Shown here: positions 17,757-42,974 of the stretch, piece by piece
Position numbering within the stretch: position 1 is the stretch's first letter
Layout: every line of letters starts with the position of its first letter
Assembly (NCBI GenBank): GCA_902770045.1
Contig: CACXRO010000001.1
Location: 1 to 64,000, forward strand
Length of the DNA: 64,000 nucleotides
Source of the DNA: an uncultured bacterium
GTDB taxonomy: Bacteria > Verrucomicrobiota > Kiritimatiellia > RFP12 > UBA1067
Direction: 5' to 3'
Notes under the pieces: generated by a model
Databases searched by the model: none
Told to the model about the DNA's origin: nothing
What the model saw: the letters and a program-made list of their open reading frames with translations, nothing else
Made by a program: the position numbers and the translations under genes

Positions 17757-17808
17757 TCAACCGTCGCCCGTTACTCCGGCTGTCGCGACAAAACACCAGG
17801 CTAACATG

Positions 17809-18558
17809 TCATGCAATAGTCAACATGTCGTCTGATCCGATACCGCTGGAGAATTCTACGTCGGAGAAAACTTCGCCAAAATCACTTTCCTCCGGTTCGG
17901 GCATCGAAAACGCGAAAAACGCCGGTGATGCGCGCAAACGGGAAATGGACGCCGATCCGCCTTTTGTCGCAAGCAATATCGCCTTCCATAAAGCCGCCGC
18001 CACCGACCGGCTCTCGATGGGCAAAGGATCGCATCTGAGATACTCGCCCTTCGCATTACCCATCCGCAACAGACTCAGGTCGCACAATATCCAAAGCGCA
18101 TATTCAAGATTCCGTCCAATTGTCGAACTTGCGCCGCGCATCTCTTCTATACGACGCTGGATCTGCTGCCGGAATATGCTTTCCTGCATTCCGAAAAGAC
18201 GTCCGGCGACAAGCGACACTTCCATGAAGAACGGATATGTCGCCGAAAGAATCGCCCAGTGAAGCGCAATGCGCTCTTCGCGAAGGCACTGCTGCGCAAC
18301 TTTCAGCATCTGCCCGGCGAACACAGCAAGGCATTCCTCTTTCGGAGCAAACCATGACGCCAGCATCGAAAGCACCTTCTTTGCGGATTCCTTGCCGCGA
18401 AGGCCTTCTTTGGTTTCGCTTCCTGAAACAATTGCAAAAAGTCGTTTCCTCGTTTCTTCGGGCGGCGTCTGAGCAATCACCATGTTGAGCGTTGCATCGA
18501 GCCATGCCCGCTTTATGTTCTGGCCTACGCCAAGCGATGAAAATCTGTCGCGCGTCAT
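17809..18558 (-). CDS. small helical protein at the end of the BREX-like cassette (BrxA-like position)
   Basis: A 249-residue, mostly helical protein whose ATG at 18558 overlaps the pglZ stop (ATGA), so it is the last gene of the cassette. The middle (about residues 80-170) has a pattern of a histidine-led helix (IALHWAILSATYPFFME), then an R-rich helix and LCDLSLLR. In size and layout this recalls BrxA (DUF1819) of BREX systems, which also sits at an operon end and is helical and DNA-binding. The likeness is weak and by eye only. The C-terminal ~70 residues are low in charge pattern and not recognisable. Confidence 0.55.
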   Translation of the reverse strand: MTRDRFSSLGVGQNIKRAWLDATLNMVIAQTPPEETRKRLFAIVSGSETKEGLRGKESAKKVLSMLASWFAPKEECLAVFAGQMLKVAQQCLREERIALHWAILSATYPFFMEVSLVAGRLFGMQESIFRQQIQRRIEEMRGASSTIGRNLEYALWILCDLSLLRMGNAKGEYLRCDPLPIESRSVAAALWKAILLATKGGSASISRLRASPAFFAFSMPEPEESDFGEVFSDVEFSSGIGSDDMLTIA

Positions 18559-20513
18559 GTCCGCGATCCCTTTCTCCTCACACGCACGAAAGGAACGATT
18601 GTCTCTTCGACCGATATGCCTCCGTGCGCCATGAGTTTCTCGCCATTCGGCGCGAATGCCCCGCGCCCAGTCTTGATGAGTGGCGAATATTTTTCCGGCA
18701 AATCGGCGCATTCCCAAGCCATCGCATCATCCGGCGCGAGTTTCGCCTTTGCCGCGTCGCGCAGAATGTCGTTAGAATAGACGCGGACGCGTTCGCCGCG
18801 AGTCTCAACTGCCTGTCCTTCCTGCAGATTGCCCGTTCCCGTCGCTTCGATGTTGCCGTGGTCGCTCGTCACGAAAACCTCAAAGCGAAGCTCCTCGACA
18901 AGGTGCGACAATAATGTTTCAAGATAACCGCCCTCCAGCCAGTCTTCTATCCTTGACGCAAGCTCGCGGTTGCCCGCAATCGTTCCGTGCGTCATCTCGT
19001 CTATGGAGTCCACGACCAATCCGAGCGCATGGCAGTTGGTGAAGTATTCCGCAACGTCGCTTTTGGCATCGCCGAGGCCAAGCCCCCTTTTGTATTTGAC
19101 GTAGGCGGGTTCGATTTCACGCGCAGCCCACGCTTCGCGCCACAAGATTGACTCGCGCGACGTGCTGTTGATGGAATCTGCAAATTCCAACGGCGGTTTG
19201 CCGGAGAATATCGCTTGGCGGGAAACACTCGTCACGGTCGGCACAGCTGCGAACGTTCCGTTTATCGAGAAGTCGAAGCGCCCCTCAAGCCGCCGACGGA
19301 TGATCGCCCAATCCTTCCATGCCATGCCGTCCACCACCACAAGCGCGAATTTGCGGAATCCTTCCGTCTTTCTCGCGGCGGAGATGGATTCTATCGTGCG
19401 GTAAACGACAGGCGGAACGGCAGACGGCACATTGGCGAGCGATGCGTATGCCCAACTTATCCACGCAGCGAATTCGTTGTCAATCTTATTCCACACCTCG
19501 CCATAGCGCAGGACGTCGATTTTGCGAGTATCCATCGTGGCAGTGAGAGCAGCCCAATTGCGGGCAAACTGCGTCCAGTCTCGCCACGACGAACGCACCT
19601 TCGGCATATCGCGCTCAGTCTCGGCGAGCGCAAAGTCGAGAGCACCGTCACCGCGTCCGTCAGCCAGATAAGCAAGCTCCTTTGCAACGGCATCCGCATC
19701 GCCCTCGACGGCAATTACACCCGCGAGGTGCAACATCACAAACGCCTCGCGTACAATCTGCACATCTAAATCGATCTGCAAATCATTATTGCCAGCCCAT
19801 TTCCCGCGCCAGAGCGTATTTGCCCAATCACGGAACACACCGGCATCCGTCAATGCCTCATCCGGCAAGGGCACGCGTCCCGCCTGCCCGTCAGCAAACA
19901 CCGCCTTCCCCCGGATGCACTTCCTAAAGTACCTGAGCAGTGTTGGCGACGTGACGCATTTCTCCACATGCAGCCATGCGAGGGTCGCAAACAGGATTTC
20001 ATGCGTCGTTATCGCCGTTGCCGACCTGCCCCACAAATCCTCGAATACAAACTCACAGGTCTTCTCCGTATCGTTTGGCCTGCACCCGCGGGCATCTGCT
20101 TGCCCGCGAATGCGAAATAGGGCGGCAATCTCGTCGCGACCGAGTTGCATCAGAACGCCACGGTCGAGCATCGGGAACAGCTTGCCGTACGTAAACCCTC
20201 CAAGCCGGCATACAGACGGATCGTTGAGAATGTCAGGCGGCACGACGCGCTCAAGATTCTCTCCGCCGCGGAATATCACCACCTCGCGGGCATCGGCGTT
20301 TCCGTGCGCCCGCCATTCGTAGATCCGACGCAGCTCAAGCGTCTCGGTAAATACGGAGACGCAATATCCTCGTGCACGGAAAACACCGAAAATCTCCTCG
20401 TCAGCAATGACAGAATCGGGATCCTCGACCAGCGTCAAGCCGGCCGGCGGACGGCCGTCATGAGCGGACGGGAAATGCGCGAGAATGTGATCAGCAAGCT
20501 TCATCGCGATCAT
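18555..20513 (-). CDS. pglZ: PglZ-domain alkaline-phosphatase-superfamily protein (BREX hallmark)
   Basis: A 652-residue protein. The C-terminal half (about 330-645) is a PglZ domain of the alkaline phosphatase superfamily, with metal-binding motifs VVVDGMAWKDW (~Asp 346) and VTSDHGNIEATGTG (Asp-His), and the usual HGG near the end (MAHGGISVEETIVPF). PglZ is the universal hallmark gene of BREX phage-exclusion systems and their relatives. Start at 20513 gives an ATGA overlap with the methyltransferase stop; a second ATG three codons later is possible. It is tightly packed in a five-gene operon and looks intact. Confidence 0.88.
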   Translation of the reverse strand: MIAMKLADHILAHFPSAHDGRPPAGLTLVEDPDSVIADEEIFGVFRARGYCVSVFTETLELRRIYEWRAHGNADAREVVIFRGGENLERVVPPDILNDPSVCRLGGFTYGKLFPMLDRGVLMQLGRDEIAALFRIRGQADARGCRPNDTEKTCEFVFEDLWGRSATAITTHEILFATLAWLHVEKCVTSPTLLRYFRKCIRGKAVFADGQAGRVPLPDEALTDAGVFRDWANTLWRGKWAGNNDLQIDLDVQIVREAFVMLHLAGVIAVEGDADAVAKELAYLADGRGDGALDFALAETERDMPKVRSSWRDWTQFARNWAALTATMDTRKIDVLRYGEVWNKIDNEFAAWISWAYASLANVPSAVPPVVYRTIESISAARKTEGFRKFALVVVDGMAWKDWAIIRRRLEGRFDFSINGTFAAVPTVTSVSRQAIFSGKPPLEFADSINSTSRESILWREAWAAREIEPAYVKYKRGLGLGDAKSDVAEYFTNCHALGLVVDSIDEMTHGTIAGNRELASRIEDWLEGGYLETLLSHLVEELRFEVFVTSDHGNIEATGTGNLQEGQAVETRGERVRVYSNDILRDAAKAKLAPDDAMAWECADLPEKYSPLIKTGRGAFAPNGEKLMAHGGISVEETIVPFVRVRRKGSRT

Positions 20514-23245
20514 TCCCCGATGTAGTTGTCGGCCTGGTCGAGATACCAGGTAAGCATCTCGTCGGTTTCGACAATCTCCGCCGGTGCCTTGCGGGCTATG
20601 GTGACGATGTTTTTCCAGTCTCGGCGGCCGTAATCGCGCTTGAAGCCGGCTCGGAGCGCCTCTGCCCGGACCTCCTTGAGCTTCTTGGCGGACGAATAGG
20701 TGTCGTATTCCCGCAAAAGGGAGGCCTCGCGCTTCTTTTCTACGTCGCCTGCTCGGCGCGGATCGGGCACACTCCAAACGCCATCTTCGTCGCGTATGAA
20801 GTTTTCTTCCAGAAGATCCTTTAGCTCAAGCTGGCGTTCTTTCTTGTCCCATGCCGAAAGCGCCTTTACGAACTCCGGCATGACATCCTGGTATTTCGAC
20901 GGCTTCTCCTTGAGATAATTGCGCAGCCAGGCAATCGCTGTACGTTCGTCGGTGACGAAAAGCTCGCCCTGTTCGACCACTTCCAACTTGTCCCGCGCCG
21001 CGCGGTATTCCTCGACCTGCTCAGGGAGAAACACCATATCGTCCTCCTCTGAAAAGCGTTCGCCGAGACCATGCTGGAAGTCTCCCGCGTCCATTGGCAC
21101 AGTAAAGCCGTTACGAATGTAGTAAGCAAGGAGCTTGTCGTAGACGATGCGCGGATCGCGCTCGCGTACACGCTCGAGCGATTTGCCCCTGCTTTTTACG
21201 ACAGGCAACTTCCCGAGATGCTCGCGCACGAAGTCCCACACGCCGTCCGGCGTCTCCGCCTCTTTCGCAAAACGCCTCTGAAACGCCTCGTCCGGTTTAT
21301 ACGCCGAAATGACAAGGTCCTGTTTCACGGCGGTTGGCGTGGTGACGGCCTTGAAGCTACCCTGTTTCTTGTCAAGGGCAGAGACATTGGCTACAATGAA
21401 ACCGGCATCAGAAAGCGCCGTCTGGATCGAATTCCATATCGCACTTGAAGTATTGGAAAACTCCACCGTCATCCAGCGTCCAGGCTTCAGGACACGATAC
21501 GCCTCGCGCAAACAATCACGCATCAGCGAACGGTATTCTGAAACCCCTTTGTGCTGGACATCGTTTTCTATCGCCTCTTCTTTGTTGTCGGTCACGACAC
21601 CAAGCCAAGATTCCCAAATGAAGTTCAATTCCGAGTAGTTGATGTTTGCGCCAAAGGGCGGATCAAGGAAAATGTAGTCGATGCTATCAGCCGGAATGCT
21701 ATTCAATCTGGAGGCCGAGCCGGTGTTCTGTAGAAAGTTATTGCCGGTAAATGTCTGCGAAAGACTATTCGCACAAGTCTCGAACCGATTTTCAAGCGAA
21801 AATATTGGTCGCTTCTCAACAGAGAGACTTGGTATATATAGGGTCCCAGCCAATCCAGGTATGAATGGGCCTCCTCCACCATTGAAATAATATCCAAGTT
21901 TCATCCGTCCCATCTTTGTTGAGTCTAAAGTTACTCCAGTAAGGACGAAGCGAAATATGTTGCTTGGAATAAGTGTAGCGTATTTCGCCAGCGTCCACAA
22001 ATTACGCTTGGTGTAGAACTGGTGGACGTGGGTGATGCCAATGGGTATATTCCGGCTAGTTTCTTTTCCAGGCGGCAGTTCGACGACGGGGAACGGGTAT
22101 GGGATTGGCGTGTTGTCTATTTGCTGGATTTTTTCGAAGTCGGCGGCGTCAGGCATTTTCTCGTAGCGTCTTCTGCCTACGGCGTAGTTGATGAGCACGG
22201 GAACTTGCCGCGCTGTCTTTAAGATGTGTCCGAGCGCGTGATCCCAAACGGACGAGAACATGCGTTTGGAGTTTCGTTTCGTCATCTCCGCACGGCAGTG
22301 CGGACATTCAAACACATCCTTCACCCTGCCGTTTTCACGATCCACCGCCGCGTCCCAAAAGACGACCTCTCCTTTGCAGTTAGGACATTCGTAAACGTCG
22401 CTCCACACGACGTAGTTGATTTTGCCCATGACGGGTTTACCGTCACTGCCGACTGCGGGCAAACCGTCTTCGAAATGCTGCGTTTCATACATCCAACCGC
22501 ATTCCTTCTCCACTTCGGAGAGAATCTTCTCCGCTTCCTTGAGAAAAGCGTAGGCGGAGACTGGCGTGTTATAGTTGGAGGCAATAAACGTGGCAGCAGG
22601 CGAGAGATCATTTAGAATGACTCTGCGAGCACCGAGACGAGAGATCGGTTTCTTCGGGTCCTTGGCTTTCGGGTCGAAGATGCGGCCTTTGCCGTCAACA
22701 GTGTAGCCGAGCGATTCCACCTGTCTGCGGTCGCCGCACATCTGGGCCGCAACACCTGTCATGCCCGTTCCACAGAAGCCGTCGAACACGACATCCCCCG
22801 GCTCCGTGTAGTGCAGGATGTAGCGCATGATCGCCTTATGCGGCACCTTGGTGTGGTAGGTATGGGCATTGTAGATCGGGTCGTTCTTGCCCTCGGAGAC
22901 ATCGGAGGCAAATGGTTCGCGCTCGTACTTGCGGTCACTCGGGACGCGCGATCCAGCCTTCCATTCACTGATGAAATCTTCGATCCACGGATTGGGGCAG
23001 GCGCAGTAATAGGGAGGGTCTGAGAGCGACAAGATTGCCTCATCGCTGCCTTTCGGGAAGCCCTCAATGGCACGAAATGCCGGATCTTTCAGCTTTTTAG
23101 CGAGGAGCGCTCTGAAATGCTCGCGCCTCGCGGCGGCATTGGGAAAGGTCTGGCCGAGGCAGGTCTCGGGCTGGTTAGCCGGGTCGAGATGAGCGAAGAA
23201 ATCTGCTTGCGTGTCGGTTGCCACGATTGACTCCCTTATGGTCAT
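20510..23245 (-). CDS. adenine-specific DNA methyltransferase of the BREX-like cassette
   Basis: A 911-residue DNA methyltransferase. Near the N-terminus LSLSDPPYYCACPNPW and, at ~150, DVVFDGFCGTGMTGVAAQM give a catalytic DPPY and a SAM-binding FxGxG motif, in the order of the beta class. A zinc ribbon (YECPNCKG...FECPHCRAEM) lies near 285-325. A second DPPF (FLDPPFGANINYSEL) lies near 530, as in DUF1156-type (PglXI-like) enzymes. In BREX, the methyltransferase marks host DNA and is needed for defence. ATGA overlaps join it to the ATPase and PglZ genes. No separate restriction gene is visible. Confidence 0.85.
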   Translation of the reverse strand: MTIRESIVATDTQADFFAHLDPANQPETCLGQTFPNAAARREHFRALLAKKLKDPAFRAIEGFPKGSDEAILSLSDPPYYCACPNPWIEDFISEWKAGSRVPSDRKYEREPFASDVSEGKNDPIYNAHTYHTKVPHKAIMRYILHYTEPGDVVFDGFCGTGMTGVAAQMCGDRRQVESLGYTVDGKGRIFDPKAKDPKKPISRLGARRVILNDLSPAATFIASNYNTPVSAYAFLKEAEKILSEVEKECGWMYETQHFEDGLPAVGSDGKPVMGKINYVVWSDVYECPNCKGEVVFWDAAVDRENGRVKDVFECPHCRAEMTKRNSKRMFSSVWDHALGHILKTARQVPVLINYAVGRRRYEKMPDAADFEKIQQIDNTPIPYPFPVVELPPGKETSRNIPIGITHVHQFYTKRNLWTLAKYATLIPSNIFRFVLTGVTLDSTKMGRMKLGYYFNGGGGPFIPGLAGTLYIPSLSVEKRPIFSLENRFETCANSLSQTFTGNNFLQNTGSASRLNSIPADSIDYIFLDPPFGANINYSELNFIWESWLGVVTDNKEEAIENDVQHKGVSEYRSLMRDCLREAYRVLKPGRWMTVEFSNTSSAIWNSIQTALSDAGFIVANVSALDKKQGSFKAVTTPTAVKQDLVISAYKPDEAFQRRFAKEAETPDGVWDFVREHLGKLPVVKSRGKSLERVRERDPRIVYDKLLAYYIRNGFTVPMDAGDFQHGLGERFSEEDDMVFLPEQVEEYRAARDKLEVVEQGELFVTDERTAIAWLRNYLKEKPSKYQDVMPEFVKALSAWDKKERQLELKDLLEENFIRDEDGVWSVPDPRRAGDVEKKREASLLREYDTYSSAKKLKEVRAEALRAGFKRDYGRRDWKNIVTIARKAPAEIVETDEMLTWYLDQADNYIGE

Positions 23246-26200
23246 GCCACGACGAAACGTACTTTGTCTTGATTGCAGTTGGCGGATTTCACATCGAGGA
23301 AATCGGCGAACGCTTTCTTGGCCTTGGCGGGCTCCACAGGACCGAGCTTCTTGAGCGTCTCGGCGAGCTCCTCGGCGGCGATTTCGATCTTCTCGAGTCC
23401 GCCGAGGGCGTTCTTGAGGCCCTTGACGAGAATCGGCTTAATGGGAACCGACAAATTGCGCTTGCGCTTGTATTCCTCGACCGCCTTTTTCTCGTCGCCC
23501 GAAAGCACGTCGAGCGAAGCGCTTTCGAGTTCTCCGAGAAAATGCGTGTTCCATTTTTCGATTGTGGATTCAATCAACTTCGGGAGCTGCTCGAGAACTG
23601 CGGCGGCATTTGTTTCTGCGCCATGCTCCTTCGGCGAATAACCGCAGAGGCAGAGCGGTGAGCCTTTGAGCGCATTCCTGTCGAAGCGAGTGCAGACGCG
23701 GAGCGCGGCGAGCTTTGCGTCAATGGCGTCCAGATCGGCCTTCGGCGCGACGGATATGACAGAGAGATCCCGGAGAACTTTCAGCTGTGGCGAATTGAGG
23801 ACTTTCCGTTTGTCAATTTCGCCTTGGGTGCCGAGGCATGATTTCTCGTGAACTTCGGTGTAGTGTTCGATCCACTCCGCCTCGAGGTTGCGGAAGGTAG
23901 CCGGCACATCCTTCAACGCATTCATGACGCCATTAAGATCTGTGGCGGCGACTATGGCGGTTTTAACCGCAGCGAAGGCAGTATCCTTTTCAGCGAGCCA
24001 TTCATCGCCAGGAGGACAATTCGAGGCGGCCTTTTCGAAGTAGGCTACGTTCATACTGTTGCGCTCACAGAACTCGCAGAGTTTCTTCAGACTGTCGACT
24101 AGAGCCACATCGTCCTTGTGGGCTATGATTTCCGCCACAGAGAACGGCATGGTCTTCAGCTTCGCGCAGGTGTTGACTCGAAGGAATCGTTCGAGCAGGG
24201 ATTTGGCGGAGGCGATGCGCGTAAGGGCATCAGCTATATGCGCCTGCGCGAGGAGATCTTGATCGAGGAAGGATACGCCAGAAGAAATACGCGGGGAGAG
24301 TTCGGCTGCCGCGTTGACGATGGACTGCGCGTTGGTGGCAAATGCTGTAACAGCGTCCAGGTCGTCATGGAGAGCTTTCATCACCCAGTCATGTCCGAGC
24401 CCGACTAGACCGAACGCCGCCTCAAGCGCGTCGGAGTTGAAGCCTTTCGGGTGTGAGACGTGTTTGAATTCGGCAAGATCGTCAATGTCCGTGGCAGCGA
24501 GCTCATCAATGTTTTGCGCGGCAAATTCGTGTCCTGGGATTGAGAGCGTCGTCTTTCCGGTTGCAACAAGTGCCGCGTTCACAATGACGAGCAGATCGGG
24601 TTCCAGACGGAATGTCTCAGGCTCGAACCATTCCGAACCGTTCACCTCAGTCACGAGATCGGAGCGATTCAGCACCTTGCCTTGTCCGAGATCGGCAAGT
24701 TTGTCAAGAATCTTCTTCGCATAAAGCGAACCGGAAACAGTGAGCCTGTTGGCGTCGAGAAGCTTGAGCCCGTCAAGTAGAATCACGCCTTCTTTGGTTG
24801 GCTTTCCGTTTGCGATTCCGGCGAGTGATTGCTTGACGGCGTTTGGACGGCCTTCTGCGGAGACGAAACGCGGGAAGACGGGGTAGTCCGGCGCTTCGTT
24901 TGTAAATTCGCCCTCGAGCATGTGCGATGCGAGGGCGCTCACGACATCGCGCCAGTTGAACGGGTCGTTCGTGCCAACGCCCCATGCACCGCGAAGGTCA
25001 AGTCCGGACATCGCTTCGACGCCCGTCTTGCGCTCGCCCTTGTAGATGATCGAGAATGCATCAAGACGGTTCGACTGCATCCATGTATTGAAGGCGTGGA
25101 GGTAGCGGTTTGAGTAGGATTCGTATGTCGTTTTCGCGGACCCTGACGATGTCGAGCGCAAGTCAATCGCAGCGGCCATGAGGCGAAGATATTCCTTCGC
25201 CTCCGGATCGGACGGCGTGAAATCGAAGATAAGTTCGTCAGGACGTTTCTGGTCGTGGTAAGCGGCTCCGCCGAACGGACTCAGGAAGTAGAGGTAGAAA
25301 TCGAGCGGAGGCTGTGCGGTGGAGCGTTCGTCCGGCGCGCCGAAGAAAAGGTAACCGCGGCGGAATGTGCGGTGCGAAAGCCAGCGCACGTTGTCGTAGC
25401 GCCAGATGCGGAATCCGTTTACGTGGGTTGGGACATCGGTCACCTCAAAGAGATGGGCGATTGCGGCGAAATATGCGCGGTTCATTTCCTCATCGCCAAT
25501 CGTTTCGGCGCGTTTGGAGACGAGTTGTTCGTAGTCAGTGTCTTTGGCAATGTCGATGTAGTACTGGCCGTTGTCGGGATTCTTGGCGATGTACTGTCCA
25601 TCAACCGCCTTCATGGTCTGGCGCACCGAAAGGTCGATCTGGTTGGCAAGCGAGACGGATGGATTTTCCTGTTGCGCACTCATCCTGTCGAACACAAACA
25701 GCATGTCGCGAATTGCGTTCGGGTCGAGACCGATGCGCGAAGAGATGTCGCTGCGACTGAGGCGGTCAACCGCGAGGGCGTGCACGATGCGAAGCGCGTT
25801 TGGAACGAGACTCTTCTTGAGAGAACCGTGAATGATTTTCGACTCAAGGGCATCGACAACCTCGATTACTTTGCGCACATCCGCGTCGGTGCGGGCGGTG
25901 CCGTCTTTCGCGACATTCTCCCAATAGCCGTCGAAGGCGATGACGCCAGGTTCATCGGCAGGGACCTCCGAATCTAGGATTTGCGAGATCTTTTCCGAGA
26001 GAGTATCAAGGACGCGGCGTTTCTCGACGCGGCGCATCTGCTCGAACACGTTGATGAAATCGGGATGGACGGGGAACATGGCGGCGTACTCGTCCATGTT
26101 CGCGAGAAGAGGTTCATAGCACTTCGTGAACTTCGCGAGGTGGGATTTGATCGCTTTGAGTTGTTCAGGTGTCTTCTTGAGGAGACGCTCGGCAACAACG

Positions 26201-26988
26201 AATTTCACATCCGTCTTGGCAATCTTTACCTGGGCGAAACGCTCGGCGACACGGGCAAGGGAAGTCGAGACGAATGCAAATCTGTCCGAATCGAAAATTG
26301 CCTCCTGAACACCGCCGATGAAACGGAAGCCGTAAAACTCGCCATTCTCGTCGCGTTCGTTTGCGAATTCCCCGAGTTCGCGCATGAGGCCAAAGGCGAG
26401 AATGACGTTCTGGTCATTGCCGAGGGCGCGGAGGTAGTCGAGCATCTCGTCGATCACGAGAAGCAGCCCCTTCCCCGGAAACTTCTTGCGGTATGCGACC
26501 ATCATATCCCGCATCCACGATTTGTTGTTCACGCCTGTAGAGCCGCTGGCGGGGATGACGAAATCGACGCCGACGGAATCGAGGTGGTTCTGGAGAAGTC
26601 CTGTCACGATGTCACGGAACGGCGAAGTAACGGCACCGATATCGTCGCATACGACATTGTATTGGCCGGCAAAGGCGGTTGCCGCGCTACGAACGGATTC
26701 ATTTGAGATTGCCGGCACGACCGACGCGTCGGAAGCGATGGCTGAGATGACGGTGAGAAGATGCGATTTACCTGTGCCGTAGTTGCCGACGACAAGCAAC
26801 CCTTTATGTTCGTCCGCTCTGGCTGGATCGAGATGCCTGAACACGATATCAGTCAACTGCGCCGCCATCGTGTCGGAGATGACGTAGGTTTTGACACGTT
26901 CGACCTTTGTGCTTTCATCGCCAAAATCATTCCTCAGATTGGCGATGGTCGTGATCGGCTTGAAATCAACGAGCGATGAATACTTCAT
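23242..26988 (-). CDS. large P-loop ATPase of the BREX-like cassette (BrxC/PglY-like, DUF6079-like)
   Basis: A 1248-residue ATPase. The N-terminal third is an AAA-type P-loop domain: Walker A VVGNYGTGKSHLLTV (~65-80) and Walker B GLLLVIDEMLDYLRALG (~178-194). The GxYGTGKSH form is typical of BREX ATPases BrxC/PglY and related large defence ATPases. The remaining ~900 residues are helical with no family I can name with confidence; DUF6079 is a guess. It starts at 26988 overlapping the small upstream gene (ATGA) and ends overlapping the methyltransferase. Confidence 0.8.
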   Translation of the reverse strand: MKYSSLVDFKPITTIANLRNDFGDESTKVERVKTYVISDTMAAQLTDIVFRHLDPARADEHKGLLVVGNYGTGKSHLLTVISAIASDASVVPAISNESVRSAATAFAGQYNVVCDDIGAVTSPFRDIVTGLLQNHLDSVGVDFVIPASGSTGVNNKSWMRDMMVAYRKKFPGKGLLLVIDEMLDYLRALGNDQNVILAFGLMRELGEFANERDENGEFYGFRFIGGVQEAIFDSDRFAFVSTSLARVAERFAQVKIAKTDVKFVVAERLLKKTPEQLKAIKSHLAKFTKCYEPLLANMDEYAAMFPVHPDFINVFEQMRRVEKRRVLDTLSEKISQILDSEVPADEPGVIAFDGYWENVAKDGTARTDADVRKVIEVVDALESKIIHGSLKKSLVPNALRIVHALAVDRLSRSDISSRIGLDPNAIRDMLFVFDRMSAQQENPSVSLANQIDLSVRQTMKAVDGQYIAKNPDNGQYYIDIAKDTDYEQLVSKRAETIGDEEMNRAYFAAIAHLFEVTDVPTHVNGFRIWRYDNVRWLSHRTFRRGYLFFGAPDERSTAQPPLDFYLYFLSPFGGAAYHDQKRPDELIFDFTPSDPEAKEYLRLMAAAIDLRSTSSGSAKTTYESYSNRYLHAFNTWMQSNRLDAFSIIYKGERKTGVEAMSGLDLRGAWGVGTNDPFNWRDVVSALASHMLEGEFTNEAPDYPVFPRFVSAEGRPNAVKQSLAGIANGKPTKEGVILLDGLKLLDANRLTVSGSLYAKKILDKLADLGQGKVLNRSDLVTEVNGSEWFEPETFRLEPDLLVIVNAALVATGKTTLSIPGHEFAAQNIDELAATDIDDLAEFKHVSHPKGFNSDALEAAFGLVGLGHDWVMKALHDDLDAVTAFATNAQSIVNAAAELSPRISSGVSFLDQDLLAQAHIADALTRIASAKSLLERFLRVNTCAKLKTMPFSVAEIIAHKDDVALVDSLKKLCEFCERNSMNVAYFEKAASNCPPGDEWLAEKDTAFAAVKTAIVAATDLNGVMNALKDVPATFRNLEAEWIEHYTEVHEKSCLGTQGEIDKRKVLNSPQLKVLRDLSVISVAPKADLDAIDAKLAALRVCTRFDRNALKGSPLCLCGYSPKEHGAETNAAAVLEQLPKLIESTIEKWNTHFLGELESASLDVLSGDEKKAVEEYKRKRNLSVPIKPILVKGLKNALGGLEKIEIAAEELAETLKKLGPVEPAKAKKAFADFLDVKSANCNQDKVRFVVA

Positions 26989-27377
26989 GGCTGTTCCTTT
27001 ATGATCGTTACCTTAGGATCGATTTTGAACTTCGTTCCAAAATAGTCGAGCTCGCGCTTTTCTGGATTCCATCCGCCGCGCCAGCGAAGAGCGGTTTTGC
27101 GGCAGCGGGCGGTGGACGCGAGCGCGGCGGCAGGATCGATGGGAAGCCCGTCGCCGAAAATAATCTCCGCATTGGAGAAAACTACTTCATTTCCGTTGCC
27201 GACCGTTTTCAGAAAATCCATCGTTGCGCGTGCGCGATCGCGCTGAGCGCTACCATGCAGATGCGCGGAAAGCTCCTTGCCGAGATTGACGATTGATGAT
27301 GATACAACAAGCAAAGGATCATCAATTTGGTCGACGATCTCGGGCTTTTTTGAATCTTTATGTAAAAGGGAGCGCAT
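26985..27377 (-). CDS. small first gene of the BREX-like cassette, unknown (BrxF-like position)
   Basis: A 130-residue soluble protein beginning MRSLLHKDSKKPEIVDQ. I recognise no domain. It sits where small genes such as brxF precede brxC in type III BREX, and its stop overlaps the ATPase start. Start choice is uncertain: ATG 27377 and ATG 27389 both lie in a stable hairpin (27368-27397) whose loop holds the only Shine-Dalgarno-like sequence (GGAAAGGA). A longer frame reaches 27470 but would run through an upstream terminator, so it is rejected. Confidence 0.6.
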   Translation of the reverse strand: MRSLLHKDSKKPEIVDQIDDPLLVVSSSIVNLGKELSAHLHGSAQRDRARATMDFLKTVGNGNEVVFSNAEIIFGDGLPIDPAAALASTARCRKTALRWRGGWNPEKRELDYFGTKFKIDPKVTIIKEQP

Positions 27378-27397
27378 TTTCCTTTCCATGCACTCCC
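27368..27397 (-). promoter_or_regulatory. hairpin covering the start of the BREX-like cassette
   Basis: Minus strand GGGAGTGCAT and ATGCGCTCCC pair with one G-U, around a 10-nt loop GGAAAGGAAA. The loop holds the Shine-Dalgarno-like sequence and the 3' arm holds the ATG of the 130-residue gene. TTTTACAT follows, so it could also act as a terminator or attenuator. Confidence 0.55.
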
Positions 27398-27442
27398 TGG
27401 AAGCCCTGGACAGGCCTAAGTCAGAACACACGGAGAAAGAAA

Positions 27443-27464
27443 ATGCGCCCCCATATGGGCGCAT
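27443..27464 (-). terminator. Rho-independent terminator after the nucleotidyltransferase pair
   Basis: ATGCGCCC (27464-27457) pairs with GGGCGCAT (27450-27443) around a 6-nt loop. On the minus strand it is followed by TTTCTTTC. It separates the nucleotidyltransferase module from the BREX-like operon. Confidence 0.7.
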
Positions 27465-27579
27465 CTCCACTCACATGCCGTTCTAACTTTGAAATATGTC
27501 CAGTATTCCCAGGGAACGACTTGTTAGCAGATGATGCTAAATTGTCCTGCCTCCCTTGCGCCTAACGGCGGTTACGGAG

Positions 27580-27650
27580 GTTGGCGGTTTTCTCCCCGCC
27601 TATCGTTTACTGTCTATCTGCTTTCTCCTTTCATTTTCAGCTTCCACGAT
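27580..27650 (-). other. intergenic element resembling 43733-43800
   Basis: No gene seen in 27465-27660. On the minus strand, AAAATGAAAGGAG is followed about 25 nt later by ATAGGCGGGG and a CCGCC-closing hairpin. A similar order (AAATGAAAGGAA, spacer, ATAGGCGGG hairpin) lies after the other nucleotidyltransferase gene at 43.74 kb. Function unknown. Confidence 0.35.
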
Positions 27651-27660
27651 TGAAATAGGT

Positions 27661-27861
27661 CTAATGCGTCGACGACGAGACAGCAAACCTCGCCATGGAA
27701 CGATCCATGTCTGGATATGGCTCGCCGTTGTGCGCTGCTGACCACAAATCCCTGACAAGTCGATATGCGACTTCCAATCTCTTGTTATCGTCCATTGCCA
27801 GCGCCCAAGAATAGTCTTCCTCTGGCGGTGTGCCGCGATATGCTTGAATCGTCTTGATCAT
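27661..27861 (-). CDS. small protein paired with the nucleotidyltransferase
   Basis: A 66-residue protein (starts MIKTIQAYRGTPPEED) whose ATG overlaps the upstream nucleotidyltransferase stop (ATGA). It has no membrane segment and is rich in Arg, Tyr and Trp (YRLVRDLWSAAHNGEPYPDM). I recognise it only as a type of small ORF found beside such transferases. A toxin-antitoxin-like partnership is a reasonable inference; which partner is toxic cannot be said. Confidence 0.6.
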   Translation of the reverse strand: MIKTIQAYRGTPPEEDYSWALAMDDNKRLEVAYRLVRDLWSAAHNGEPYPDMDRSMARFAVSSSTH

Positions 27862-28304
27862 TTTCCAATCCTCTCAAGGACTTCCACGTCGGCCAAGTCT
27901 TTTGTCCTTCCGGAGGCCTTCTTGTTCGCAATCAAGTCGCCAATTGAAATCACCTTCAGTGAGATACCGTCGATTTCCTTTGCTACGGCACGCTGGGCGG
28001 CCTCTGCATACGACACTCCACTTATGCGGGTAATGATGTCAATACGACAAGGAGCGACGCCGATTTGAAAGATGATCCCATCCTCGGCAAATTCCTCAGG
28101 CTTGACATCCGACATCGGTGCGCCAAACTCGCAAAGCGCGGCATAGACCCGCCGAGCGTTTTCTCTGTCGGCAAGGATCCAGATATCGAGATCGACAGTG
28201 GCCCTTATGTAACCGTACAGATTGACAGCCCACCCTCCAACAAGGATATAATCCACCCCTGAGGCGTTGAGGCATTTCAGCATGTCTGTGTAGTTTGTGT
28301 CCAT
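27858..28304 (-). CDS. nucleotidyltransferase-fold protein (DUF6036-like)
   Basis: A 148-residue nucleotidyltransferase. The N-terminus has VDYILVGGWAVNLYGYIRAT followed by VDLDIWI, i.e. the GG(W/S) and DxD pattern of the NTase fold used by AbiEii and DUF6036-type antitoxin/toxin proteins. The C-terminal helical part ends KKASGRTKDLADVEVLERIG, a typical KDxxDV tail. ATG 28304 is preferred over an upstream TTG. It overlaps the 66-residue gene downstream and sits next to the BREX-like cassette, as such TA-like modules often do in defence islands. Confidence 0.78.
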   Translation of the reverse strand: MDTNYTDMLKCLNASGVDYILVGGWAVNLYGYIRATVDLDIWILADRENARRVYAALCEFGAPMSDVKPEEFAEDGIIFQIGVAPCRIDIITRISGVSYAEAAQRAVAKEIDGISLKVISIGDLIANKKASGRTKDLADVEVLERIGK

Positions 28305-28410
28305 GTTCAATATCTACCGGTCGCAGACCACAGCGAGGTAATCGATAGATGGTGATATTATCGCATTTCCGGGCTCAAATGTCAATGCCGATGCGGGAAA
28401 TGCGACATGT

Positions 28411-28647
28411 TCATTTGCGGTCCTCCACAGGTTCAAACCGCTTCATCTTCTTTCCATCCCGCTCGATGGTCTCGAAGAACATCTTGGCGGGGCGCACCCA
28501 CAGTCCCCCTTCGCCATACAGCGCGCGGTAGACGACCATCTCCTCCAGAGTCTCGGAGTCCTTGGCGAACCCCTCAATCCGGTAGCGCCCACCCTTGAAG
28601 TGCCAGAACTCACAACCGACCAGATGCTGTCTCTGTTCGCTCTGCAT
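28411..28647 (-). CDS. DUF1653 domain protein
   Basis: A 78-residue protein of the DUF1653 family: EFWHFKGGRYRIEGFAKDSE, then MVVYRALYGEGGLWVRPAKM and a conserved FEP near the end. The domain is a small beta fold of unknown function, often in free-standing proteins. Start 28647 (MQSEQRQHLVG) fits the family; the frame is open further upstream to 28767 but that part has no family likeness. No convincing Shine-Dalgarno sequence is seen. Confidence 0.8.
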   Translation of the reverse strand: MQSEQRQHLVGCEFWHFKGGRYRIEGFAKDSETLEEMVVYRALYGEGGLWVRPAKMFFETIERDGKKMKRFEPVEDRK

Positions 28648-28807
28648 TGCCAAAGGTTGTGCTACATTCAAGGTGAAATGAAACGCCTTCAGCGGATGAA
28701 GCTCGTCATCTGCCGCGGACTGCCGTTTACCATCAGTACCTTCATTTTCCCCTCCGATTTTTACCAACAGTCATTGCGTCGGCTCCCAAAACCAACAACC
28801 GCCCAGA

Positions 28808-37401: not shown

Positions 37402-39315
37402 CTATATGAGGCGGATTACGGTGCCGGTTCCGTCCGAGCCGCTGTGCGGATCGGAGACGCTGAGGACATTGAGATTAGGATATAGGATTTCGAAGTCGTC
37501 GCCGCCCTCGGCGCTGTTGGGATAGAACCTGCCGCCCTCAAGGATGTTGCGGAAGCCGCAGCGCCCGTCCTCGATTGCCGGCTTGAGATGCAGGACCAGC
37601 GAGGTCTCGTCCGCATAGTCCGACCAGATCTTCACCTCGGCAAAGGCAACGCGCGAGGTATAGGTGATGGTACCGGAAGTGTTCATTGCGAAGAACGTCA
37701 GCGGTGCGCCGGCAACAGTCAACCGTTTGGTAGTAGTGTCAAACGAGTCGGTTGTGCTATCATAGACGAACTGGCCGTCGCGCATTGCGACTGTGTGTAG
37801 GGTATTGCCGGCTGAGATTCCGCTTTTTACCACGTAAGTCACCTTCCCTCCGAAATCGACTCTGAGTTGGCTGCTAGGCCACGAGCTCTCCTTGTGGAGT
37901 ATCATGCCAAAGGACTGGGAGCTTGAACTTTCGCGGCCAGTCCACAGGGCCGCCACTTCTGACATAGTGTCAATGAATGCAACCCTTGCCTCGACCATCG
38001 TATTGCTGGTTGCCGTATAGTCCGTCACGATGTACTGCGTCCCCGATGACTTGAGCAACTTGTCGGCAAGAGAGTCCGAATTCCCAATGGTGAAGAACCG
38101 GGCGCAGGCAACCGATTTGCTCCACGCAAAGGGAAGCACAGCCGAGAAGGAGGTTTCGTCGTTGGCGACTGTGCCCAGGACCGAACAGCTGTCCCAGTGG
38201 GCGGGGTTGGCACCGCCGTCCGCCGCGCCATACGCGACTACCACCTGGTTCGACGCGAATCCAGTAGTTAGCGCAAGCCTGGCCTCCAGCGCGCCATTGC
38301 GCGACACGATGGACGACGAAAGGATCTGCTTGTCCGCCGTCAGCGCCTCCGTAACCGATGCAACGGTCAAATCGCCGACCGTCGGCGACACGACATCGGC
38401 CTCGTTGTAGGTGAATGTTCCAACAGGCGACAAAAAGCTCCCGTCCACGCGGTTGTAAAGCGTCACCGTGTCGTCGTTCTTGACACAGGGGATAAGGTCG
38501 TAGATAAGCGAGGCGGCATCCGTCCGATTTGTCCACACGCGGAAGCTATAGAGGGTCATCTTTCCTCGGCTCAGCGAGGTAGGTGATCCGTCGGAGTTGA
38601 CGGCGAAAAGCCCCATCGGACAGGGCGACGTGAAGGCGTCTTTGCTGACATTTACCGTGTCAGATCCGCCATCCCAGACAAGGGGTACGTTTTGGTTTGT
38701 CTGGTCAATCTGATATCGCCGCTTGTCTGTACCGGTGTAGGTCGCTATTCCGCCTGCCATGTCAAAGCGAAGAGTGGTGCCACCTTGGCACAGGCAGAGG
38801 AAGGCACTGTTGTAGGCCGCTTTTCTGGCGCCCCAGAATCCTACGGTACTGCCAAGGGTAAAGCTAACATCAGCCACAACGCGCCAATCCTGGTTGGGGC
38901 ATTTGTCCCCGAGGATAAAGTACTGCGAGCCGGTTGACTTGAGGAAGGCAAGCTGCTTCTTGAAAGGAGCTTCAACCGAGGCCAGCATAAAGCGATAGAA
39001 TGCGTCGCGGGGGCTGCTCACAGGATAGTTGAAGATCTCTTCACTTTCGCTCGCCGGGACGGTGGCCACGGAATCGATGGTATCCCAGGCGTTCATGTCC
39101 GGGCCTTGGTCAACGGCGCCGCGCACGGCGTAGAGGGAAATTTCGTCCGCGCCCGCCGACACGGCCAAGTCCACCGAGGTCACTACGCCGCCCTCCGAGT
39201 TAACGGCGGCGATCCGCACCGTGCGCGAAGGACCCTGCGCAAGCGTTTCGCACGGCAGCGCCGCCACCGCGATCAGCAGACACGCCAAAACCGATCCTGG
39301 AATTTTCCTGTTCAT
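37402..39315 (-). CDS. secreted protein with two LamG/concanavalin-like repeats
   Basis: A 637-residue secreted protein with a signal peptide (MNRKIPGSVLACLLIAVAA...ETLAQ). Two homologous modules are visible: one from LAFLKSTGSQYFILGD (~132) and one from KLLKSSGTQYIVTDY (~420). Each is a jelly-roll of the LamG/concanavalin type ending in a Leu-Pro/Lys-Pro and gene-specific description line (YDLIPCVKNDD; LHLKPAIEDG). Similar proteins are common in secreted sets of PVC-group bacteria and probably bind carbohydrate or surfaces. ATG 39315 is preceded by AAAGGAG; an in-frame ATG at 39333 would be leaderless but lacks a signal-peptide-like N-terminus. Confidence 0.7.
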   Translation of the reverse strand: MNRKIPGSVLACLLIAVAALPCETLAQGPSRTVRIAAVNSEGGVVTSVDLAVSAGADEISLYAVRGAVDQGPDMNAWDTIDSVATVPASESEEIFNYPVSSPRDAFYRFMLASVEAPFKKQLAFLKSTGSQYFILGDKCPNQDWRVVADVSFTLGSTVGFWGARKAAYNSAFLCLCQGGTTLRFDMAGGIATYTGTDKRRYQIDQTNQNVPLVWDGGSDTVNVSKDAFTSPCPMGLFAVNSDGSPTSLSRGKMTLYSFRVWTNRTDAASLIYDLIPCVKNDDTVTLYNRVDGSFLSPVGTFTYNEADVVSPTVGDLTVASVTEALTADKQILSSSIVSRNGALEARLALTTGFASNQVVVAYGAADGGANPAHWDSCSVLGTVANDETSFSAVLPFAWSKSVACARFFTIGNSDSLADKLLKSSGTQYIVTDYTATSNTMVEARVAFIDTMSEVAALWTGRESSSSQSFGMILHKESSWPSSQLRVDFGGKVTYVVKSGISAGNTLHTVAMRDGQFVYDSTTDSFDTTTKRLTVAGAPLTFFAMNTSGTITYTSRVAFAEVKIWSDYADETSLVLHLKPAIEDGRCGFRNILEGGRFYPNSAEGGDDFEILYPNLNVLSVSDPHSGSDGTGTVIRLI

Positions 39316-39341
39316 CGCCGTCACTCCTTTCATTGGCGCTA

Positions 39342-39353
39342 ATTATACAATAT
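39342..39353 (-). promoter_or_regulatory. -10 promoter of the LamG-like gene
   Basis: Minus strand ATATTGTATAAT, TATAAT at 39347-39342, with a short leader carrying AAAGGAG. Confidence 0.65.
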
Positions 39354-39401
39354 TCGCGCCAATAGTAGAAGACCTATATATAGCGGTTTTTTGCGCCGTC
39401 A

Positions 39402-39443
39402 TCAGCGCATCGTGGATTCGCGGACGACGTCTACATCCGCGTC
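39402..39443 (-). pseudogene. C-terminal remnant of a LacI/GntR-type regulator
   Basis: The frame ends DVDVVRESTMR-stop. The intact regulator at 44228-45346 ends AADLVVRESTAR-stop, and the two DNAs share a 19-nt identical word (CGTGGATTCGCGGACGACG). Upstream sequence no longer resembles a regulator. It is best read as the decayed end of a paralogous regulator gene. Confidence 0.6.
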
Positions 39444-39545
39444 TGCCGCGCAAACCGCCGCGTACGGGCCACCGCCCCCACTCCATAAGGGCAGCGTGCG
39501 CGTCCATACCGGCCATCGCCCCTGCCCCGCCTGACCAGCGTCCCA

Positions 39546-39628
39546 ATTTGCCGCCTTTTCTCGGAGTTTTGCCGCCAAATTCCGACACAACGGCGGCAAA
39601 TCACGAGATAATGGCGGCAAATTGCCGC
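39546..39628. repeat. REP/BIME-like palindrome cluster beside the RAYT gene
   Basis: Two copies of (A/T)TTTGCCGCC at 39546-39555 and 39567-39576 face two copies of GGCGGCAAAT at 39592-39601 and 39613-39622. The last runs into a GCGGCAA-TTGCCGC palindrome. Opposed, evenly spaced arms of this kind resemble bacterial interspersed mosaic elements built from REP units. 39444-39545 holds nothing else I can support. Confidence 0.55.
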
Positions 39629-39633
39629 TTGCG

Positions 39634-39699
39634 CTACTTCACCCTCACGCGCAGGAAGAACGAGGGCGGCGCGCCGTCGGGCGTAACCGCCACCTTGGC
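39634..39699 (-). pseudogene. decayed C-terminal end of a secreted-protein gene, copy 1
   Basis: A 21-codon fragment between two stops reads ...VTPDGAPPSFFLRVRVK-stop. A near copy lies at 40860-40916. About 47 of 50 bases are shared. The peptide looks like the conserved C-terminal strand of a larger secreted beta-rich protein. The two copies flank the RAYT gene in the same orientation. Confidence 0.5.
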
Positions 39700-39802
39700 C
39701 TAGCTCGCCGTTCGCTTTCTTCTGACCAATTGCGCCATGAATGGCGCAATCTCACACCGCGCAACCTATTTACGTCGATTCGGGAGTCCAGAATCCGGCG
39801 AT

Positions 39803-40708
39803 TCATCGTCGGATCGCCCCCCTAGCAATCAGCCGCGCCCAATCGTTGTTTAGATGGCAGTTGTCGTAGTTAATCGGTGTTGACGGCACCGACTCCGGGA
39901 AGCCCGACAAAACAAGCGTTTTGCTCTCTGCCAAGCGTTTGACGGCTACGCCATGAGGCTTATACCCCTTGAGACCATAAGGCAGCAGGCAGATCACCTT
40001 TGCTCCGCCAATCTCCAACACACCCTTTGCGACTTCTTTCTCTCCTGGCGAAATAAAGCCGCCAATCAAGGTCGCTCCGCCCTGCGCCAGCTCAAGATAG
40101 CGCGACACCTCGGCCGCGCGCTCTTCTTCGGTGATTCGCCGATGAACGACCACCGGCTCAAGCCAAGGCGCGTCAAGAAGCGACCTGTCGCCGATGGCCG
40201 TCCAGGAAATGCCGCGGGGCAGGCGCGAATGTCGAAGCGCAAAGTGCTTGCGGAAGAAGTCGGGGTGGTCGCGCTTCCATTGCCAGCGAATCGGATTCGA
40301 TTTAACATACTGCGTATAACGGTCAAGCTCATCGCCGGAGAAGGAAATGAAGTCGTGAAAATTCCCCTCAAAGAGGCCGAGCGTTCTGTCCCCCGCAAGA
40401 TCGCGCACAGCTTTTGTTGCCCGCGCCTTGAAGCGCCTGATATGCCATCCAAGCGGATGCGTGCTCCGGCGGCGAAAGACGATTATGGCATGAAAGTGAT
40501 CTGGCATAATCGCGCAGACGCGCAGGTCGATCTCCGGCGAATCTGTGCTCATCTGAAGATACGCCTTCAAGACAATCTCCCCGAACGGCAGAAGTTCGAC
40601 ATTCCCACCGACAATGCGCGAGAGGCAGTTCCGCCTCGGAGCGGTGTTGATCGTTACGAAGTAATATCCTTCGTGATAATCATGTCCCGTCATCCGCGCA
40701 TAATGCAT
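39803..40708 (-). CDS. REP-associated tyrosine transposase (RAYT) with DprA/SLOG-like C-terminal domain
   Basis: A 301-residue protein. Residues ~1-170 are a Y1-type transposase of the RAYT/IS200-like family: YYFVTINTAPRRN, the HUH motif in CAIMPDHFHAIIVF, and the catalytic Tyr in LDRYTQYVKSNP. Residues ~200-301 are an added domain, GGATLIGGFISPGEKEVAKG, then GAKVICLLPYGLKG and LAESKTLVLSGFPE, whose glycine loop and strand order recall the Rossmann-like DprA/SLOG fold. AAAGGAATTGCT precedes the ATG. RAYTs mobilise REP palindromes, and such repeats lie immediately downstream. Confidence 0.75.
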   Translation of the reverse strand: MHYARMTGHDYHEGYYFVTINTAPRRNCLSRIVGGNVELLPFGEIVLKAYLQMSTDSPEIDLRVCAIMPDHFHAIIVFRRRSTHPLGWHIRRFKARATKAVRDLAGDRTLGLFEGNFHDFISFSGDELDRYTQYVKSNPIRWQWKRDHPDFFRKHFALRHSRLPRGISWTAIGDRSLLDAPWLEPVVVHRRITEEERAAEVSRYLELAQGGATLIGGFISPGEKEVAKGVLEIGGAKVICLLPYGLKGYKPHGVAVKRLAESKTLVLSGFPESVPSTPINYDNCHLNNDWARLIARGAIRR

Positions 40709-40747
40709 AGCAATTCCTTTTGCTGTTGAGTACGTCTTGATTGAAGT

Positions 40748-40758
40748 ATTATATCATA
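40748..40758 (-). promoter_or_regulatory. promoter of the RAYT gene
   Basis: Minus strand TATGATATAAT with TATAAT at 40753-40748, and a leader of about 40 nt with AAAGGA. Confidence 0.6.
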
Positions 40759-40859
40759 TTCCCAATATGCGCCACACAGCGGCAGAAAACCGCCGAGCCC
40801 ACAACGAGCGCGGCGGATTCAGGTTTGGCGCGTGTTCCGCAACTACGTGCGATTCGCCG

Positions 40860-40916
40860 CTACTTCACCCTCATGCGCAGGAAGAACGAGGTCGGTGCGC
40901 CGTCGGGCGCTAGGCG
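40860..40916 (-). pseudogene. decayed C-terminal end of a secreted-protein gene, copy 2
   Basis: An 18-codon fragment reads RLAPDGAPTSFFLRMRVK-stop, framed by a stop upstream. It is a near copy of 39634-39699. The rest of 40759-41049 holds no gene that I can support. Confidence 0.5.
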
Positions 40917-41049
40917 CTATATCATCGACCGCCAATCGCTTGGAGCATAGACAAAGCGTCGTACCTCCATGACTTTCCCGATTACGATCCCTCTCGACAC
41001 TCGCAACAATCAGTTAATCAAGAAGTTTTTAGATTTCATCCGCATCCTA

Positions 41050-41646
41050 CTACACATCTATGCTTTCAGAAGATGACGATTCAGCTTCTGCCACGCAGTC
41101 AATCATCTTTATGGGCTTCCCTTTCAGCAATGCGCCGCTGGCGACCCCTTTTATGGACGCTTTCAAGAAAAGGAGCGTCGCTTGACCTCCCAAGCACAAA
41201 ACGTCATCGAGAGGGGTTGGCAGATTGATTGGAAGAATCTCATAAAGGAAAACCATTCCAATAATCCATAATGGTGTTTCGTCAAGCCGATTTGAACGAA
41301 ACATTATCAATGCCAATGAAAACAGCAGCCCCGATCCTATGCATGTAACTGGCGAAAAGAAATCAACCACGAACAAGCGAACTGGCGCAAAAATGATTCC
41401 ACAGAATAGACTGATTGGAATCGGGAGGATGCAATCTAACGCCGTCACCGTGCCTCGTTTTTCGGACGTCCCTATGGCCACAGCACCGCAAAGCGCCACG
41501 ATGAATCCAAGAATCCCCCATATGATTCCAGTCCAGATTCCGCTCCCCAGCCAGATGCCGATTGCGATTGCGACAGCTGGTGATGTGACAAACAGGCAAA
41601 CGCCCCGCAGCACATTGATGTTCGTTTTGTTTCGTTGCATAATCAT
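41050..41646 (-). CDS. multi-span membrane protein, unknown
   Basis: A 198-residue membrane protein with about five predicted helices (e.g. VCLFVTSPAVAIAIGIWLG; PIPISLFCGIIFAPVRLFVV). I do not recognise a family. The frame extends to a TTG at 41667, but ATG 41646 has AGGGA just upstream. Its AT-rich composition contrasts with the flanking chromosome. It is the last of five small genes transcribed together from 43486. Confidence 0.55.
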   Translation of the reverse strand: MIMQRNKTNINVLRGVCLFVTSPAVAIAIGIWLGSGIWTGIIWGILGFIVALCGAVAIGTSEKRGTVTALDCILPIPISLFCGIIFAPVRLFVVDFFSPVTCIGSGLLFSLALIMFRSNRLDETPLWIIGMVFLYEILPINLPTPLDDVLCLGGQATLLFLKASIKGVASGALLKGKPIKMIDCVAEAESSSSESIDV

Positions 41647-41688
41647 CGCTTCCCTATAGTCCGACAAACGAAGGACATCGTTGTTAAG

Positions 41689-42132
41689 TTACGACATCGT
41701 ATCCCAAAGTGTTCCGACATTTTTGAAGAAAGAATACACTGAATAACCATACCAGGCAAGCAAAGGCCATTCAAATAACGACGGCGCACCCCAATGAGCG
41801 ACACAAGCAGTACTTTCAGGCGTCAAATAGTATCCAAAATAACAGATGAGCGCTGTTATCCCCATTGAACCCAAATGACCGAACAAAAATGCCATTCCAC
41901 CAGGAGCACGAACTATTCGTATTAAACCGTAGCGTAGTTGATCTGTATTGCATCTAAACAATTTCCCCAAACTAACGATGGTCAATAACGGCCCAAATGT
42001 CGCCATCCAAACAGACAGAGCCATAAAGGCAGTCCAAATGCAAAAGAACAGAAATGCCCCCATCCCAGAGTGGCCGCCCCATCCGCCTGTCCACCGTATG
42101 AAGATGTATGAATAGAAGATAATTTTAATCAT
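41689..42132 (-). CDS. membrane protein, unknown
   Basis: A 147-residue protein with about four predicted membrane helices (MGAFLFFCIWTAFMALSVWM; GHLGSMGITALICYFGYYL). ATG 42132 has an excellent Shine-Dalgarno sequence (GGAGGTG) and lies 14 nt after the zinc-ribbon gene stop, so the longer frame from 42204 is rejected. No family recognised. AT-rich, part of the accessory cluster. Confidence 0.6.
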   Translation of the reverse strand: MIKIIFYSYIFIRWTGGWGGHSGMGAFLFFCIWTAFMALSVWMATFGPLLTIVSLGKLFRCNTDQLRYGLIRIVRAPGGMAFLFGHLGSMGITALICYFGYYLTPESTACVAHWGAPSLFEWPLLAWYGYSVYSFFKNVGTLWDTMS

Positions 42133-42146
42133 GGTATCACCTCCAA

Positions 42147-42956
42147 TCACAGCTTTGTTCCACAATTCCTGCAGAATTTCCCTGCAGATGCTTTCGCGCC
42201 ACATTCAGGACAAAACCTTGGATATCCAAACTCAGATGAGGTCTCCGATGAATCTTGCTTTGCCATTGCATCTTCATTTTCAGTATCCGCCTTTTCTTCG
42301 CCATCCATAAAAGTATCACTCTCTGCATCCTCTTTTCCAACATAGTCAGACGCATCCACATCGTTCAATTCGCCAGATTCCCGCTGTCGTGTAAACATAT
42401 TTTTTGCTTCTTTTAGGAGGCTCCTTATATTTTCACCTGCCACCACCTCTTTCATCGTCGCCTTCATTTCCTCTACCGAAAGCGATTCAAAAGAAACATG
42501 CTTTACCGCAAGCAGGGTTAAAAGCTTTAGATAGACAATTCCAGAAACCCATGTCAGCGCAAATACCATGGCTCCATTAATTCCAGCTGCCGCCACACTT
42601 CCTAAACCCGGCACCAACGATGCAAGTGTCGAACCGACAAAGGTTGTAGCCATGTATGCAGCCAAATTGGTACATAACGCACTCGCGACGGTCTTAAGAA
42701 TATTTTTTCCGATGGGGACCCCCAACTTGCTATTTATACGCCCATACATTGTCCATACAAAGCCAGCTGCCGTTGCAACGGCCAGCGTCGATCCTACACC
42801 TGGTGCCCACCCTGCGGCAAGGCCCGCCACCCCAGCTCCTTTCGCATGGAATTTTACAACATCGGCTATTTCGGTAGGCAGTGTTTTGTCAGCAACTTTG
42901 TCCAGCGCTTTGACAAGAAGTTTCGCAGAGCGCAAAACTATGTCTGCTTCATTCAT
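42147..42956 (-). CDS. DUF697-like membrane protein with C-terminal zinc ribbon
   Basis: A 269-residue protein. Residues ~1-150 have glycine-rich amphipathic and membrane helices (GVAGLAAGWAPGVGSTLAVA; LVPGLGSVAAAGINGAMVFA) like DUF697 proteins, which partner GTPases. A charged linker follows, then a zinc ribbon CPECGAKASAGKFCRNCGTK (C-x2-C...C-x2-C) at the very end. The partner is unknown. It follows a cysteine-rich small protein in the same orientation. Confidence 0.65.
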   Translation of the reverse strand: MNEADIVLRSAKLLVKALDKVADKTLPTEIADVVKFHAKGAGVAGLAAGWAPGVGSTLAVATAAGFVWTMYGRINSKLGVPIGKNILKTVASALCTNLAAYMATTFVGSTLASLVPGLGSVAAAGINGAMVFALTWVSGIVYLKLLTLLAVKHVSFESLSVEEMKATMKEVVAGENIRSLLKEAKNMFTRQRESGELNDVDASDYVGKEDAESDTFMDGEEKADTENEDAMAKQDSSETSSEFGYPRFCPECGAKASAGKFCRNCGTKL

Positions 42957-42974
42957 AACAATGACTCCTTTCTT

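Follow-up and report, generated by a model that had tools for sequence, protein, structure and literature searches.

The window analysed here, a 64-kb stretch of bacterial DNA (64,000 nucleotides), holds a five-gene cassette on the minus strand at 17,809-27,389 (Table 1). All five ORFs are intact (130-134, 1248, 911, 652 and 249 aa) and each of the four junctions between them is a 4-base ATGA overlap, as stated in the first-pass annotation. For brxF the in-frame ATG at 27389 is probably the best start; the ATG at 27377 chosen in that annotation is an alternative. The gene order, brxF-brxC-pglXI-[ ]-pglZ-brxA, equals that of canonical type III BREX (brxF-brxC-pglXI-brxHII-pglZ-brxA; PMC12839542; PMC10799925) minus BrxHII.

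Table 1. Features of the cassette and its surroundings in the 64-kb window
Feature	Position	Strand	Description
accessory block with cassette	17766..28708		10,943 bp; sister genome has 41 bp instead
brxA	17809..18558	-	small BREX protein that binds DNA, 249 aa
pglZ	18555..20513	-	BREX-3 phosphatase/nuclease, 652 aa
pglXI	20510..23245	-	type III BREX DNA methyltransferase, 911 aa, zinc-ribbon insert
brxC	23242..26988	-	DUF6079 P-loop ATPase, 1248 aa
brxF	26985..27389	-	diverged small protein of type III BREX; lacks the P-loop strand
nucleotidyltransferase	27858..28310	-	DUF2204/DUF6036-like; Pfam DUF2204 29 bits, cut-off 20

The cassette is part of a larger accessory block. A genome of the same genus (G182, locus L176) aligns with the window at 96-97% (blastn) on either side of the block, up to 17,765 and from 28,709 onwards. 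The 41 bp there correspond to 10,943 bp here, so that the block as a whole, together with its nucleotidyltransferase, was recently either acquired by the genome of the window or deleted from the sister genome. No exact repeats of at least 10 bases were found near the boundaries. The cassette has a GC content of 0.55 and GC3 values of 0.57-0.67, and the flanking genes of the contig mostly show a GC3 of 0.84-0.95. The low GC and GC3, the absence from the sister genome and the DUF2204 match bear out the earlier description of an accessory island with a nucleotidyltransferase. This gene overlaps a 60-aa ORF by ATGA (27679-28310); the ORF has no Pfam match, and the two possibly form a toxin-antitoxin-like pair carried by the block. 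Low GC (down to 0.465) also marks another stretch, 37402-43500, which contains several ORFs (643, 301 and 205 aa) without a Pfam match.

Family assignment of the five proteins

Comparison with BREX family profiles, as proposed in the first-pass annotation, assigned every gene to a type III family. To rescore the five proteins we used family profiles built without the window sequences, which gave 36 bits for BrxF, 1233 for BrxC, 1309 for PglXI, 451 for PglZ and 151 for BrxA. The BrxC protein matches Pfam DUF6079 over its full length (1154 bits, residues 1-1247) as well as PADLOC BrxC (1159 bits). Its Walker A motif GNYGTGKS is intact, and the ATPase signature given earlier as GxYGTGKSH reads GNYGTGKSH. 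PglXI scores 1222 bits against PADLOC PglXI and is 43-50% identical to annotated plasmid PglXI. It carries DPPYY near residue 76, DPPFG near residue 528 and a zinc ribbon (C287/C290/C314/C317, P0003 numbering) of which all four cysteines are invariant in the alignment, in agreement with the dual-DPP methyltransferase recognized at first reading. A 33-aa gap in PglXI that seemed specific to the window when five sequences were compared was rejected as such a feature; it recurs in PglXI of Bacillota and Chloroflexota. The PglZ gene and the protein in the position of BrxA were likewise correctly named, given 420 bits against NCBIfam BREX_PglZ_3 (cut-off 250) and 123 bits against PADLOC BrxA. No PADLOC or NCBIfam assignment to BrxL, BrxB or type I PglX was obtained among the five cassette proteins.

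The match of BrxF is weak: 34 bits with PADLOC BrxF (E 5e-9), 36 bits with NCBIfam BREX_3_BrxF, which is under the cut-off of 50, and 35.9 bits with the window-free profile of 55 BrxF sequences (E 3e-7 at Z = 1e6). In the alignment the P-loop strand and a short C-terminal motif are lost; the predicted model is only partly confident and yielded no usable fold match in the PDB. We count BrxF as present, though it scores below the NCBIfam cut-off and has lost its P-loop. The features of type III BREX found here are thus a DUF6079-type BrxC, a PglXI with zinc-ribbon insert, a BREX-3-class PglZ, BrxA and this diverged BrxF, whereas BrxHII between pglXI and pglZ is missing. BrxHII is a core component of type III BREX, but with a share of 77% of type-3 taxa (PMC12839542) it does not strictly define the type.

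Among the 55 BrxF sequences the Walker A motif reads GxxxxGK[ST] in 34 and AxxxxGK[ST] in 6, with neither form in the other 15. A coupling between loss of the P-loop and loss of the helicase was considered and rejected, because several BrxF proteins without P-loop are found in loci with an intact BrxHII. As a separate observation, BrxF has been described as an inactive STAND ATPase (PMC12839542), a blanket label that poorly fits a Walker A-like motif in 40 of 55 type III BrxF (L082, L071, L027 and others); Bacillota and some others have lost the motif.

PglZ has an intact NPP-type active site. The residues of its metal and nucleophile set (D395, T428, D505, H509, D551, H552 and H630, P0004 numbering) are invariant across the alignment. 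Its AlphaFold2 model (pLDDT 85) matches PorX (Foldseek, E 4e-17) and PglZ of the Acinetobacter BREX complex (9zn5_B, E 4e-14), and also NPP phosphodiesterases. PglZ of type I BREX is a metal-dependent nuclease (PMC12205998). The first-pass annotation saw no BrxL, nuclease or restriction gene; this holds for BrxL but takes no account of PglZ, given the nuclease function of its type I homologue. Its suggestion that an effector may hide in unfamiliar regions of the ATPase or the end proteins becomes unnecessary, because PglZ keeps this active site in a PorX/PglZ-like fold.

BrxHII in the window, its genome and related loci

The order of type III BREX without BrxHII had been noted at first reading and is confirmed by our searches. 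Seven diverse BrxHII queries gave no tblastn match in the 64-kb window. Between 10 and 40 kb no remnant was detected either: a search with hmmsearch --max over all segments of at least 20 aa gave a best E of 8.7. In the genome to which the window belongs, a MAG of 2.27 Mb in 87 contigs that is 85% complete, the profile search recovered no BrxHII, its only matches being a DEAD-box helicase and a DUF3670-SNF2 protein. The case in which the helicase is merely located elsewhere was thereby checked in this MAG; a BrxHII on the missing 15% is possible.

To place this in context, we compiled a survey of 79 loci fetched from a genome collection by PglXI alignment, together with plasmid loci and loci of the same phylum, all annotated with iterated profiles. 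Loci were counted as informative if they were distinct and carried pglXI and pglZ on one contig. Outside the window an intact BrxHII occurs in 44 of 58 such loci, normally between pglXI and pglZ, and is lacking in 14 (24%), in a sample biased towards relatives of the window PglXI. This share agrees with the 23% of a 2026 survey, where BrxHII was present in 702 taxa or 77% of type-3 systems (PMC12839542).

The helicase-less loci take different forms. In L030, L045, L057, L066 and L073 the genes are adjacent; L060 has brxC and pglXI swapped; in L035 (where pglZ is broken), L039, L098, L102 and L126 other genes occupy the gap; L038 and L069 contain BrxHII fragments; and in L089 a divergent SNF2 protein follows brxA. 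The search for the same order without helicase that was suggested at first reading found an exact counterpart on the E. faecium plasmid pP47-180 (L030), which shows the identical five genes, likewise without BrxHII. The plasmids L027-L029 show the canonical order, the same as the window apart from the helicase, with an extra RNA-binding-domain gene before pglXI in L028 and L029. When plasmids were searched with BrxHII, the listed matches that cover 80% or more of the query were confined to these three alphaproteobacterial plasmids.

Several further observations concern these loci. In L039:12764-15731, L098:7947-10584 and L126:11459-12913, where BrxHII is missing, the gap from pglXI to pglZ contains an OLD-like AAA_15/DUF3696 ATPase gene, and that of L098 also holds an RNA ligase-like gene. 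The canonical loci L071 and L082 have an ORF of similar size to the OLD-like ATPase gene between pglXI and BrxHII. In L057:3484-13265 (Synergistaceae) a second pglXI and brxA fragments follow the helicase-less BREX operon. In genome G158 of the same class (L018:1-4980, minus strand) a 1,660-aa ORF without Pfam or PADLOC match comes after brxF-brxC and runs off the contig.

It might be argued that the system still relies on a helicase, BrxHII or another, whose gene lies in some other part of the genome. The incompleteness of the MAG would allow this, and at other helicase-less loci a different helicase is encoded nearby (UvrD together with a PD-(D/E)XK gene at L073, the divergent SNF2 protein at L089). 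However, the helicases recovered from the own genome are not BrxHII, the scanned neighbours of the cassette include no member of a helicase family, and BrxHII is normally located between pglXI and pglZ. We therefore regard a helicase encoded elsewhere as unlikely.

Position among known BREX systems

The first-pass annotation proposed a candidate new defence subtype. One observation favours a separate and coherent helicase-less subtype: in the BrxC tree, three Bacilli loci without BrxHII between pglXI and pglZ (E. faecium, Thermoactinomyces and Brevibacillus) group together as a single clade. The window, however, falls outside this clade. The strict set, which comprises seven helicase-less rows (six for PglZ), requires a minimum of 6 changes on the PglXI tree and of 5 on both the BrxC and PglZ trees, all three being quick trees without bootstrap. 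For the broader set, the well-supported branches force at least 6 (PglZ), 9 (PglXI) and 9 (BrxC) changes. The helicase-less state is thus scattered over the trees, with at least five switches in the strict set, rather than confined to one lineage. The exact place of the window is unsure because of its long branches (2.6 changes per column for PglZ, 1.6 for BrxC). As its gene families are moreover those of type III, and 23% of published type-3 taxa lack the helicase, a subtype of its own is highly improbable.

On the basis of the family profiles, the cassette is best classified as a divergent, helicase-less, long-branch member of type III BREX and not as a new class; roughly one in four such systems has the same gap. 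It shares with type III BREX five of six genes in the same order and of the same families, as well as the lack of BrxL, and differs in having no BrxHII and a BrxF without P-loop. Its best identity to the surveyed type III relatives is about 33% for PglZ and about 38% for BrxC. The helicase-less loci L030, L073 (Thermoactinomyces mirandus), L045 (Syntrophaceae MAG) and L060 (Atribacteria MAG) have the same five genes, but none of them is the window's nearest relative, and L073 and L045 carry extra large upstream genes. Helicase-less type III loci have already been counted in the literature, and the claim to discovery is modest.

The type I BREX core (BrxB-BrxC-PglZ-PglX) is the functional counterpart of the set retained in the window, but type I has other PglX and BrxC families and BrxL in place of BrxHII. 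The DUF499-centred type-3 BR systems (PMC12839542) resemble the cassette in having an ATPase, a methyltransferase, PglZ and an iSTAND protein. Their DUF499 ATPase and helicase are not found here: the window ATPase is of the DUF6079 type, and the window has BrxA.

Proposed mechanism and preservation of the cassette

Our preferred reading, which we consider probable, is that of a type III BREX operon which lost or never gained BrxHII, resides on a horizontally exchanged block and would work by the core BREX mechanism. Most likely the cassette would methylate host DNA via PglXI and restrict unmethylated phage DNA via PglZ, by analogy with type I BREX, from which the mechanism is carried over. In this scheme the DNA-binding ATPase scaffold BrxC, BrxF as the counterpart of BrxB, and PglZ would assemble with the methyltransferase PglXI into a core complex. 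PglXI would mark the host chromosome at a specific motif. Entry of phage DNA that lacks this methylation may make the complex switch state, upon which PglZ would nick or block the phage DNA. BrxA would act as a DNA-binding regulator. The usual part of the helicase would be to assist restriction, much as BrxL does in some type I systems; in the window it may be unnecessary, or a host helicase may take its place. For type III, BrxHII has been proposed to unwind DNA in the manner of BrxL (PMC12839542), and the importance of BrxL in type I BREX varies (PMC13326643). Because the window retains the counterpart of the type I core plus BrxA, the core BREX reading is the best supported. In the literature found, no type III system was shown to work without BrxHII.

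Some observations go against the core BREX reading, namely the diverged BrxF without P-loop, the long PglZ and BrxC branches, and BrxC keeping 75 of 97 near-invariant residues (77%; columns conserved in at least 95% of the other sequences). Partial decay of the cassette is therefore conceivable. In its extreme form the operon would be a decaying relic, which lost the helicase and the BrxF P-loop, is under relaxed selection for the rest and provides no defence. The degenerate BrxF and the long branches fit such decay, which is indeed seen at other loci (the BrxHII fragments of L038 and L069, the broken pglZ of L035). A relic is nonetheless difficult to reconcile with five intact ORFs in perfect ATGA coupling and with the near-invariant residues kept in PglZ (31 of 32) and PglXI (167 of 174). 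Furthermore, the window contains no helicase scar, and BrxF proteins without P-loop also occur beside an intact helicase. Altogether we judge a relic improbable. Close relatives of the cassette for dN/dS were found neither in 288 genomes of the class (DUF6079) or 162 of the order (PglZ), nor in IMG/VR or phages; a PglXI scan of 388 phylum genomes yielded distant type III loci only.

Returning to the core BREX reading, a stronger version can be put forward tentatively, at somewhat less than an even chance: the five genes may constitute a self-sufficient minimal type III BREX, in which PglZ restricts phage without a dedicated helicase or BrxL, which arose repeatedly and for which the helicase is optional. 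The cassette bears on the question which BREX component stops the phage and whether a BrxL or helicase step is needed, and offers a natural five-gene test system. If it protects, PglZ with BrxF, BrxC, PglXI and BrxA would be enough; if it only methylates, the helicase would be the restriction switch in type III.
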